Below, one piece after another: positions 11,170 to 47,213 of a stretch of DNA of 64,000 nucleotides. The stretch comes from Pyrinomonadaceae bacterium (GTDB taxonomy: Bacteria; Acidobacteriota; Blastocatellia; Pyrinomonadales; Pyrinomonadaceae): contig JAVEDP010000041.1 of assembly GCA_030841085.1 (NCBI GenBank), positions 186,001 through 250,000 on the forward strand, written 5' to 3'. Each line of letters begins with the position of its first letter. The first letter of the stretch is position 1. The notes beneath the pieces were generated by a model that was not told the DNA's origin, ran no database searches, and saw only the letters and a program-made list of their open reading frames with translations. The position numbers were made by a program, and so were the translations under genes.

Positions 11170-11355
11170 AGTAAACAGCAACCAGCGAGTTTCAGTAAAC
11201 AGCAAACAGTTAACAGCAAACAGCCGGAAAAAGCATCTCTTGTTTATGATTGCTGATTCTCATCTCCGCGCGAGCACACAGATTCATAATTCTTGCTGTT
11301 CACGGTTCACTGTTTGCTGTTCGCTGTTTACTGTTTGCTGTTTACTGTTTACTTT
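11170..11355. repeat. inverted heptamer element Hp1
   Basis: Two facing arrays of 7-bp repeats around a spacer of about 65 bases. Left array (about 11170-11227) reads CAGTAAA CAGCAAA; right array (11293-11355) reads TTACTGT TTGCTGT in nine units, the reverse complement of the left type. The right array ends at the stop codon of the phosphoesterase gene and the left array reaches within about ten bases of the rpiB start, so the whole gap between the genes is the element. Confidence 0.85.
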
Positions 11356-12332
11356 TACGCCAGCGATTCATCCCGCAGATCAAGCAGCCGTCCGGCAGAT
11401 GCCACAACTTTTCCGGCCTGCAATTTGAAATCGACGCGGCCGACATAGATACCGCTTCTGCCCACCTGAAAGATGATGGTGTCGTTACCCGATGGTTGTT
11501 TAGTCAGCACCGGTTTTTGCATGAACGTATGCGTATGTCCGCTGGCAATGAAATCGATGCCATCAACCTGCGACGCCACTTGCGTATCGCCAATCTCGCC
11601 GCCCGTAGCATTCGGGTAATAGCCGAGGTGCGACATCCCGATGACGAGCTTGCAACGCTCGCGCTGTCGCAGAGTTTCAACCACGTCCCGAGCTGATTTA
11701 ACCGGATCCATATACTTCACGCCTTTGAAATTTTCCGGCGTGATTAAATTGTCTGGACTGATTCCCATGCCAAACAAACCCACGCGCACGCCGCCCAGGG
11801 TTCGTACGACGTATCGTTTGACCCGCGTCTCGAGCGGCGTGCCGCGCAGGTCATAGTTACTGGAAACAAAATCGAAGTTGGCAAACTTCATGGCTGCCAC
11901 CAAAGCGTCAACGCCATTATCGAAATCGTGATTGCCCAATGTGCCAACGTCATAGCCAATCAGAGACATCGATTTGTATTCGACTTCGCCTTTGTAAAAG
12001 TTGAAATACGGCGTGCCTTGAAACACGTCGCCGGCATCAATCATCAGCGTGTTCGGATTTTCCTTGCGCACGCGTTTGACGAGAGTGGCGCGGCGGGCGA
12101 CTCCGCCTTTTCCGCCATACTGCTTGTCATTGTCCGGCAAGGGATCGATTTGGGAGTGCGTGTCGTTAGTGTGCAGGATCGTGATTAAGGTTTCGCCGGC
12201 CACCGCCTCCAGCAGCGGCGCCGAGATAGCAGACCATGGGGAACTTGAAAACAATTGCGCCCGCGACTGCGGCAGGGCAAGCGCGGCTCCGCCGACGATT
12301 GAGCTTCTTAAAAAGTTGCGCCTGGTAATCAT
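11355..12332 (-). CDS. 5'-nucleotidase-type metallophosphoesterase, Tat-exported catalytic half
   Basis: The 325-residue protein is the N-terminal, catalytic half of the UshA/5'-nucleotidase family. It has a twin-arginine signal ('ITRRNFLRSS' and a hydrophobic stretch), then the dimetal motifs 'ILHTNDTHSQ', 'GDVFQGTPYF', 'GNHDFDNG', 'MSHLGY' and 'SGHTHTF'. Members hydrolyse nucleotides or UDP-sugars outside the cytoplasm. The usual C-terminal substrate-binding half is a separate gene immediately upstream (12329-13204), overlapping by ATGA, so the two are translationally coupled. Each has its own export signal, so this is a split enzyme and not a frameshifted one. The stop codon abuts a heptamer repeat array. 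Confidence 0.9.
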   Translation of the reverse strand: MITRRNFLRSSIVGGAALALPQSRAQLFSSSPWSAISAPLLEAVAGETLITILHTNDTHSQIDPLPDNDKQYGGKGGVARRATLVKRVRKENPNTLMIDAGDVFQGTPYFNFYKGEVEYKSMSLIGYDVGTLGNHDFDNGVDALVAAMKFANFDFVSSNYDLRGTPLETRVKRYVVRTLGGVRVGLFGMGISPDNLITPENFKGVKYMDPVKSARDVVETLRQRERCKLVIGMSHLGYYPNATGGEIGDTQVASQVDGIDFIASGHTHTFMQKPVLTKQPSGNDTIIFQVGRSGIYVGRVDFKLQAGKVVASAGRLLDLRDESLA

Positions 12333-17746: not shown

Positions 17747-17780
17747 AGTTTTTCCATGGTTTTTATCTAATAAGATTGGT

Positions 17781-18323
17781 CATTCATCATTTGACAGTTC
17801 TCATTTATTATTTGTTCTGCGTCGAGCGGTGGCAAGAGTGCTTGCAAAAATTCTACACAATTCTTTGTTCTCACCGATAATGTCGATAATCAGACTCTTT
17901 CGAAGCATATTGCTGCGATCGATAATGCGCAACCATATGGAGGTTTCATTTAGTTCTTTCAGTACGATTCTAACCTTGTGAACAAAATCCGCATGGCTTT
18001 CCGCGCCTCTCGCCTCGCCATAGTTAGGAGCAGGCGACGTCCCAGAACGCATTATTTGTCCTGCAACGTGCTTTCCAGCAGGACTCTTCGGCAAGCTTGC
18101 GGCGAGTTTGATAATACGAACGGCAAAATCAACCAGTCGCTCCTCAAGATCGTCCGCAAGTGATTGAACATTCTTTGGAACTTTGCGATCCACGCGATCC
18201 TCCTTCTAGCCTTAAGGGTGATCGAGTAGGCCATGAGCGCCAGCACGGGCTTGGCATTTAGAGCTTTATCGTTAGCGGCGTGTGGAAAAGAAATAATAAA
18301 TGAGAACTGTCAAATGAGAAATG
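17781..18323. mobile_element. inverted-repeat element Hp2 carrying a four-helix-bundle gene
   Basis: A 33-base terminal repeat at 17781-17813 recurs inverted at 18291-18323 with 31 of 33 positions equal. Its units are 7 bp long (CATTCAT CATTTGA CAGTTCT CATTTAT). Everything between is one gene plus its leader. The stop codon TGA of the gene lies in the left repeat. The same terminal repeat (CATTCATCATTTGAC) bounds the non-coding elements at 19648-19952 and 46988-47213. This looks like a small mobile element with autonomous and non-autonomous forms, though no transposase is present and movement is inferred. Confidence 0.7.
17801..18193 (-). CDS. four-helix-bundle protein (23S-IVS / S23, TIGR02436 type)
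   Basis: The 130-residue protein has the family layout: 'LEERLVDFAVRIIKLAASLP' in helix 1, 'KHVAGQIMRSGTSPAPNYGE' leading into helix 2, 'FVHKVRIVLKELNETSIWLR' in helix 3 and a last helix before a basic tail. Relatives are encoded in intervening sequences of 23S rRNA genes and include the Avd protein of diversity-generating retroelements, which binds nucleic acid. Start is GTG at 18193 with AAGGAGG six bases upstream. The last residues 'TNNK' and the stop are encoded by the inverted repeat that bounds the gene. It lies in the gap between deoB and the VWA gene, as expected of inserted DNA. Confidence 0.88.
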   Translation of the reverse strand: MDRKVPKNVQSLADDLEERLVDFAVRIIKLAASLPKSPAGKHVAGQIMRSGTSPAPNYGEARGAESHADFVHKVRIVLKELNETSIWLRIIDRSNMLRKSLIIDIIGENKELCRIFASTLATARRRTNNK

Positions 18324-18352
18324 ATAAATATTCTCTTCTGCCTGTTTAGAAT

Positions 18353-19647: not shown

Positions 19648-19952
19648 CAGAGGTCAGAGGGCAGAGGTCAGAAGTCAGAGGTCGGAGGTCAGAGATTTAC
19701 CATTCATCATTTGACATTTCTCATTTGTCATTGCGGAGGAAGTGTTTGTCTTCAAATGACAGGACTCAAGCCATAAATGACCGGACTCAAGCTATGCGGG
19801 TGCTGATTCAACACCGGAGAAGTCTCGAGAGGACAAGAAAGGCCTTCTCCGAAAATGAGAAATGTCAAATGATGAATGGTAAATCTCCGACCTCCGACCT
19901 CCGACCTCTGACTTCCGATCTCCGACCTCTGACCTCTCATCTCCGACCTCTG
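19648..19952. repeat. inverted heptamer element Hp3 (non-coding)
   Basis: Left flank: seven 7-mers of the CAGAGGT type (19648-19696), then the core. A perfect 35-base inverted pair lies at 19692-19726 and 19853-19887 and contains CATTCATCATTTGAC, shared with Hp2. Right flank: ten 7-mers of the CTCCGAC/CTCTGAC type (19885-19954), the reverse complement of the left type. The 126-base interior has a direct repeat of 21 bases (AAATGACAGGACTCAAGC) and no gene. It fills most of the 480-base gap before the tRNA genes. Confidence 0.85.
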
Positions 19953-20044: not shown

Positions 20045-20119
20045 GGGCACGTATGTCAATGGTAGACGGCTTCCCTTACAAGGAAGAGGTTGGGGGTTCG
20101 AGTCCCTCCGCGCCCACCA
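20045..20119 (+). tRNA. tRNA-Val (anticodon TAC)
   Basis: Cloverleaf by eye: acceptor GGGCACG with CGCGCCC (one A-C mismatch at pair 5), short D arm with GG, anticodon stem CTTCC/GGAAG with loop CTTACAA giving anticodon TAC, T arm GGGGG-TTCGAGT-CCCTC, and an encoded CCA at 20117-20119. The D stem is weak (TGTC/GACG). Confidence 0.9.
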
Positions 20120-20121
20120 AA

Positions 20122-20186
20122 GTAGGACAGGCATTCCTGCCTGTCCGCGTTTAATAAGACTGGACAGACAAGAAAGTCTGTCCTAC
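20122..20186. repeat. family C palindrome, copy 3, between tRNA genes
   Basis: GTAGGACAGGCATTCCTGCC and GGACAGACAAGAAAGTCTGT form an outer stem (GTAGGACAG with CTGTCCTAC) and two inner hairpins (GGACAGGC-ATTCCT-GCCTGTCC and GGACAGAC-AAGAAA-GTCTGTCC). It sits in the spacer of a tRNA pair that is probably one transcript, so it may be transcribed and affect processing. Confidence 0.8.
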
Positions 20187-20201
20187 TTGGTTTCTGTTCT
20201 C

Positions 20202-46967: not shown

Positions 46968-46987
46968 CGGTGCCCATGGAAGGTTAC

Positions 46988-47213
46988 ATTTTTCATTCAT
47001 CATTTGACATCTCTCATTTGTTATTTGATCTGAGCGAGACGAGTTGCTACAAACCACCTGGAGTTCGATCCGAGTTGTTCAATAGGTTGCTGATCAGGTT
47101 GAATATGGCGCGACCGCTCCTGCAAATGACAAATGAGAGATGTCAAACGATGAATGATAAATCGGGCACTTCTTCTGATCTCTGACCTCTGACCTCTGAT
47201 CTCTGACCTCTGC
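46988..47213. repeat. inverted heptamer element Hp5 (non-coding)
   Basis: Inverted pair 46989-47027 and 47123-47161, 36 of 39 positions equal, containing CATTCATCATTTGAC shared with Hp2 and Hp3. Right of it six 7-mers of CTCTGAC/CTCTGAT (about 47172-47213). The interior of about 95 bases has no gene. The element reaches within seven bases of the cobO ATG. Confidence 0.85.

Follow-up and report, generated by a model that had tools for sequence, protein, structure and literature searches.

Facing heptamer hairpins at a tRNA-Val promoter belong to a class of mostly intercistronic elements associated with PF05635 (IVP/S23) genes

The hairpin Hp3, located in a window of 64,000 nucleotides from the genome of a Pyrinomonadaceae bacterium, is a nest of two gene-less hairpins with facing heptamer arms, an older one built of CAGAGGT units and a younger one of the ATTTACC type that sits in its loop. 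Facing heptamer arms are associated with genes of the family PF05635 (23S rRNA IVP, S23), which code for a four-helix bundle. The reading that best accommodates the data, and that we consider probable, is that these are mobile elements of an IVS-like kind that sit between cistrons and have arms read by pentamers of IVP. The class is widespread and apparently unnamed in the literature searched, in which IVSs with an S23p ORF are already known.

The anatomy of Hp3 was explored using TRF and a repeat search of the window. TRF placed 6.7 copies of CAGAGGT at 19648-19694 and 9.4 to 9.7 copies of CTCCGAC at 19885-19952, and the repeat search paired 19648-19726 with 19853-19931 (79 nt, 90% complementary), including a perfect inverted core of 35 nt in which 19692-19726 is the complement of 19853-19887 (100%). 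The two methods agree with the sequence-only reading, which had described a palindrome with facing 7-mers and a perfect 35-base core upstream of a tRNA promoter. The promoter, that of tRNA-Val, lies directly downstream of Hp3. As a single strand Hp3 folds with −160 kcal/mol (z −11.8). At equal threshold the real window holds four 7-periodic arrays versus none in any of ten shuffles of the complete window by a first-order Markov model. The Rfam search returned only two tRNAs and one chance-level match, the latter at Hp3. The neighbours, a minus-strand VWA gene and the plus-strand tRNA-Val, are divergent, which led to the rejection of a terminator reading for Hp3 itself, a verdict that does not extend to tandem copies.

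Comparison with G011, the closest relative in the set (same genus, 81% identity over a neighbouring coding region of 1.25 kb), resolved Hp3 into two parts. The flanks of the site are conserved in G011, which holds there only the CAGAGGT facing arms with a short, different loop; the inner ATTTACC-type hairpin is missing. A copy of the inner element, with approximately 74% identity over arms and loop, is found at the start of the G011 contig C236. The absence of the inner part from the site and its presence elsewhere indicate a younger ATTT-type hairpin inside an older CAGAGGT hairpin. The array facts of the sequence-only reading thus stand, while its single palindrome of about 300 bases is corrected to two nested hairpins, as against one palindrome with a heptamer gradient. 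The features of Hp3 and of the related elements in the window are as follows.

19648..19694, plus strand: outer left arm of Hp3, CAGAGGT x6.7 (TRF), with an orthologous arm in G011
19692..19732, plus strand: inner left arm of Hp3, ATTTACC/ATTTGAC-type, 7-periodic, with no counterpart at the G011 site
19733..19852, unstranded: inner loop of Hp3, gene-less, with a 21-nt direct repeat (19754-19774 / 19775-19795); homologous loop at G011:C236
19853..19887, minus strand: inner right arm of Hp3, its core pairing with 19692-19726
19885..19952, minus strand: outer right arm of Hp3, CTCCGAC x9.7, with a 51-nt CTCTGAC array as its G011 counterpart
20045..20119, plus strand: tRNA-Val gene, the downstream context of Hp3
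17772..18332, minus strand: Hp2, ATTT-dialect element with a gene, arms at 17772-17816 and 18288-18332 (inverted-repeat search)
17801..18193, minus strand: IVP/S23 four-helix-bundle gene of Hp2 (PF05635, TIGR02436)
46985..47212, unstranded: Hp5, ATTT-type hairpin without a gene, then a CTCTGAC array at 47174-47212 (repeat searches)
11193..11358, unstranded: Hp1, CAGTAAA/CAGCAAA facing hairpin (TRF, G011 comparison)

The core of Hp3 had been said to be shared with Hp2 and Hp5; it was found at both (17773-17816 / 18288-18332 and about 46988-47029 / 47120-47162, respectively) and recurs in the source genome as dozens of other arms. Both dialects of Hp3 occur around PF05635 genes, CAGAGGT at locus L011 and ATTT at Hp2. 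The other elements of the window also differ from their G011 counterparts: that of Hp2 is a short gene-less hairpin, likewise of the ATTT dialect, the slot of Hp1 is occupied by a hairpin of the GTCAGTT dialect, and the gap between tRNA-Val and tRNA-Asp holds a CAGAGGT hairpin in G011 and a different hairpin in the window. In Hp5, as in Hp3, the ATTT-type hairpin adjoins a CTCTGAC-type array, here on one side only, an arrangement suggestive of a target preference of ATTT elements for CAGAGGT arrays. Hairpins of other families (GTAGGACAGGCATTCCTGCCTGTCC, GTAAAGCAAACTGTTAGTTTGC and TGGGACCGCGGGCG) occur at 20120-20188 of the window and at C15:17672-17750 and C15:194376-194550 of the source genome. 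These three loci are intergenic and differ from G011, with a near-clean empty site at C15:17672; given the 15 Y1_Tnp genes in the genome, the families may be REP-like.

Hp3 is one member of an abundant class. In 1.2 Mb of the source genome, 127 arrays scoring at least 14 have period 7, and each of the periods 4-6, 8-13 and 15 contributed 0 to 8 (period 14 is a harmonic). Facing pairs, defined as arrays at most 1.2 kb apart with reverse-complementary units (one mismatch allowed), number 51 in the same 1.2 Mb, which bears out the expectation of further copies in the genome. Neighbouring arrays of equal unit that lie at most 130 nt apart are inverted in 38 cases versus direct in 2. The dialects include AGTGCTG, GTCCAAA, ATTGCCG, AGTTTCR, CAGAGGT, ATTTCGG and CAGTAAA. 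Most gene-less copies have loops unrelated to those of the others, for which reason a MITE with a conserved interior was rejected for most of them; the inner Hp3 element, with its similar loop elsewhere in G011, is the exception. No target-site duplication was recognised among the elements, and no transposition intermediate was found. The genome also contains very long single 7-nt arrays of up to 237 nt (G000:C31:189505-189741 and G000:C15:285328-285461); the scan found no facing partner for these, and they may be products of slippage.

The tie to four-helix-bundle genes, proposed from the sequence alone, is strongly supported. The source genome has 17 PF05635 loci, Hp2 included, and after reorienting, matching facing arms are present at about 12 of them, each with its own heptamer. 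Across 124 PF05635 loci, drawn from the source phylum together with named species spread over many phyla (Acidobacteria, Planctomycetes, Bacteroidetes, Firmicutes, Spirochaetes, Proteobacteria, Verrucomicrobia and others), facing period-7 arms flank 73; at the same loci other periods gave 0 to 3 facing pairs, and none were seen at a distance of 1 kb. Among plasmid IVP genes that were fetched, ten cyanobacterial and two others, 10/12 have facing arrays, which supports the link to STRR-type repeats of cyanobacteria that had been raised. At the level of genomes, 20 with IVP genes yielded 37 arrays in 392 kb (12/20 positive), versus two homopolymer runs, both in one genome, in 342 kb from 20 genomes without them; Fisher's test on the raw counts, uncorrected for phylogeny and genome size, gives p 5e-5.

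The association extends to the sequences themselves. Proteins that are more alike have heptamers that are more alike (Mantel r −0.36, p 0.001), a correlation owed in part to the shared descent of entire elements, and 42% of gene-less dialects fall within one mismatch of a gene-linked dialect of the same genome, versus 14% for random sets. IVP proteins have no recognised catalytic domain, and two that were tried in PADLOC gave no match. On cyanobacterial plasmids, CRISPR-cas operons (cas6-cas4, cas10-cmr3) hold IVP genes with facing heptamers, at L338 1146-1977, L339 1378-1966 and L347 1501-1857, the heptamers of the last being partial. PMC10910872 likewise lists a “23S rRNA IVP” in a figure of CRISPR adaptation modules, where it could be an intercistronic passenger.

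The arms follow a common set of rules. Among 178 gene-flanking arms, 73 measure 30-33 nt, 27 measure 23-29 nt and 7 measure 34-36 nt, and the arms of the source genome have the same mode. An arm of 30-33 nt equals four heptamers plus 2-5 nt, that is, five cores. The two PDB structures of the IVP family (2gsc and 2rld) each have five chains, and work cited in PMC4990558 and PMC10053308 describes Xcc0516 as a toroidal homopentamer. The unit consensus of the gene-flanking left arm is A (96%), G (91%), T (61%) and NNNN, with an information content of 4.45 bits, whereas shuffling of the units gives 3.08 (maximum 3.55). The polarity of the left arm is consistent in 81/89 gene-flanking cases and weaker in the gene-less copies of the source genome (27/38).

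Whether the two arms co-vary had been posed as a question by the sequence-only reading. They do so in unit sequence, left and right units lying within one mismatch in 67/81 cases versus 6% for swapped partners. They do not in repeat number, which shows no correlation between the arms (rho 0.09), nor generally in the order of unit variants, which is mirrored position by position in 4/75 cases at p ≤ 0.05. This indicates that one arm does not usually arise as a copy of the other. G-U-compatible mismatches are also not over-represented in the sense transcript (88 versus 109, and 29 versus 32 in a second count), so that selection for RNA pairing as such shows no sign.

The elements occupy a particular niche. 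Of 43 gene-less elements classified, 37 lie between tandem, 5 between convergent and 1 between divergent genes, against a background in which 23% of the space is divergent (p 4e-4); since the ORF calls simply took the longest frame, single placements may be wrong. The outer edges are typically at most 10 nt from the upstream stop codon and the downstream start codon, and a co-directional gene precedes the IVP gene in 102/112 cases. Hp3 has the two facing 7-periodic arms with matching units that define the class, and it lacks the co-directional flanking genes, unlike the 37/43.

Sites are both conserved and turned over. In the block C15:1-20000, all 6 of the slots filled in the source genome are also filled in G011, and the dialect differs in 4 of the 6. 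The gap-pgk junction carries an AGTGCTG element with an IVP gene in the source genome and G011 and is empty in two relatives (−4 nt, an overlap, and 9 nt), while other relatives have elements of about ten dialects there. The paralogues L006/L010 (83.5%) and L222/L227 (89%) are alike over arms and gene and have unrelated flanks; in these two pairs the copied unit is the arms plus the gene. At the tdh-kbl junction, near-identical genomes (L192, L194, L211) hold IVP elements of the dialects GGGACCT and CTCGAGG in one slot. As a clean exchange of elements (L192/L211) this case is weakened by a difference of about 60 nt at the start of kbl, which homologous allele replacement explains as well.

The mechanism that we propose would proceed as follows. 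Each element lies between two arms that face each other, typically about 31 nt long and with five A-G-(T) cores spaced by 7 nt, and gene-bearing members enclose one PF05635 gene. A homopentameric IVP ring may bind an arm, one heptamer per subunit, and the bound protein would mobilise or maintain elements of its own dialect, whether gene-bearing or gene-less. New copies would enter intercistronic sites, frequently inside an element already there, by a transposition chemistry that, like the pentamer stoichiometry, we infer. In the transcript, the arms would pair into a stem that RNase III could remove, presumably also from mRNA-borne copies, and insertion into rRNA or between cistrons would for this reason do little harm.

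Placement between the stop and start codons of tandem genes would equally suit a stationary post-transcriptional regulon, in which a TRAP-like IVP ring on intercistronic mRNA heptamers tunes operons and the arrays are selected and immobile. The filling of the same slots in two species and the five cores per arm next to pentameric structures point the same way. We nevertheless regard this as unlikely, given the dialect switches in shared slots and the whole copies at different loci; moreover, one arm would be enough for a site in sense RNA, yet the arms face each other and are reverse-complementary.

Rather less likely still is that Y1 (HUH) transposases move the hairpins, as in REPIN/RAYT systems (PMC3116915), with the IVP gene as a passenger. 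The anatomy and niche are similar: REPINs are gene-less hairpin doublets between genes, their types tied to a resident repeat-flanked gene. Besides the Y1_Tnp genes of the source genome, such genes are commoner in IVP-bearing genomes (43/58 versus 28/61). In contrast with REPIN/RAYT, the resident gene here is a four-helix bundle (PF05635) rather than a Y1 transposase, the arms are tandem heptamers and most loops are unconserved. It is PF05635 that the arrays flank and whose sequence they follow, and 15/58 IVP-bearing genomes, some of them with arrays, have no Y1_Tnp match, including G048 with seven IVP genes and two arrays in 20 kb.

More improbable again is a retroelement in which an Avd-like IVP and a reverse transcriptase acting in trans copy hairpin RNA into intercistronic sites. 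The fold is related to that of Avd of diversity-generating retroelements (PMC10053308), and IVP proteins give weak matches to the Avd model (E 9e-9 at best); these reach 20-36 bits, below the cut-off of 80. The sense orientation behind the upstream gene would agree with such a route, and RVT_1 is commoner in IVP-bearing genomes (29/58 versus 10/61, p 2e-4, with genome size as a confounder). The other half of the IVP-bearing genomes (29/58), however, has no RVT_1 match, including G017 with nine IVP genes and G048 and G094 with seven each. An obligatory reverse transcriptase or Y1 transposase partner is not supported, though both are commoner in IVP-bearing genomes.

Plain replication slippage of simple 7-nt repeats without any protein, which would accord with some very long arrays and with heptamers outnumbering all other long simple repeats in many genomes (as cited in PMC4679880), is scarcely credible and as a sole cause contradicted by the peak at 30-33 nt, the facing orientation, the agreement of units across the loop and the tight tie to one gene family, even if slippage may explain the longest arrays. 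The earlier suggestion of either slippage or a reader of 7-base steps therefore survives in its second half: arm length peaks instead of falling from the shortest detectable value, which favours a protein that takes 7-base steps over slippage alone.

Among the closest known relatives are the 23S rRNA IVSs with an S23p/IVP ORF of Coxiella and Leptospira (PMC4990558), which share the PF05635 family and stem-forming terminal inverted repeats. In the Coxiella IVS, tandem heptamers also adjoin the S23p ORF, on its upstream side, and RNase III excision has been demonstrated by others for rRNA copies only (PMC4990558). A member of this kind is L348 1448-1910, an IVS in the 23S rRNA gene of Azospirillum lipoferum 4B that bears AGAGGAC-type heptamers facing each other and an IVP gene missing from the annotation; ten other IVP loci checked for rRNA had none. 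Unlike the rRNA IVSs, most members described here lie outside rRNA, between cistrons, and many are gene-less; each has its own heptamer dialect, and the source genome holds dozens of facing pairs per Mb. Hp3 has terminal inverted repeats able to form a stem, lies outside any 23S rRNA gene (its neighbours are the VWA gene and tRNA-Val) and contains no S23p/IVP ORF, one being carried by its dialect-mate Hp2.

Heptamer repeats have been described separately as GGGAATC of Xanthomonas and GGGGA(C/T)T of Nostoc (PMC4692102) and as TAACTGA of Beggiatoaceae (PMC4679880); together with STRR these share, in the available descriptions, seven-base tandem units and an intergenic location. According to PMC4692102, the GGGAATC repeats of Xanthomonas occur as convergent pairs, favour four units and sit between aligned ORFs, with a deficit where ORFs diverge. 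Compared by this published description, their rules are the same as those of the arms and placement reported here. The accounts of these heptamers, in the text accessible, treat them as G-quadruplexes or regulator sites, and no link to PF05635 was found in it. No paper linking heptamers with four-helix bundles was found in the literature searched, a scope outside which subscription papers and preprints lie.

Taken further, PF05635 could be the cognate factor of bacteria-wide selfish intercistronic elements that a pentamer reads dialect-specifically in five 7-nt steps; new elements would home into older slots and replace their dialect, and rRNA IVSs, STRRs and the GGGAATC repeats would all be members. 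This wider proposal is quite possible, and we advance it more tentatively than the mobile-element reading itself.

The class would offer one explanation for several separately described 7-base repeats of other bacteria. It would join four puzzles, namely, the 23S rRNA IVSs, the S23/IVP proteins that lack an assigned function, the STRR-type heptamers and the inter-ORF repeats of Xanthomonas, which would become testable as one system with a sharp prediction, that an IVP binds its own five-step arm and not that of another dialect. It would also reveal a source of hairpins inserted in operons, gap-pgk and cas included, and may explain the “association” of PF05635 with unrelated systems such as CRISPR.
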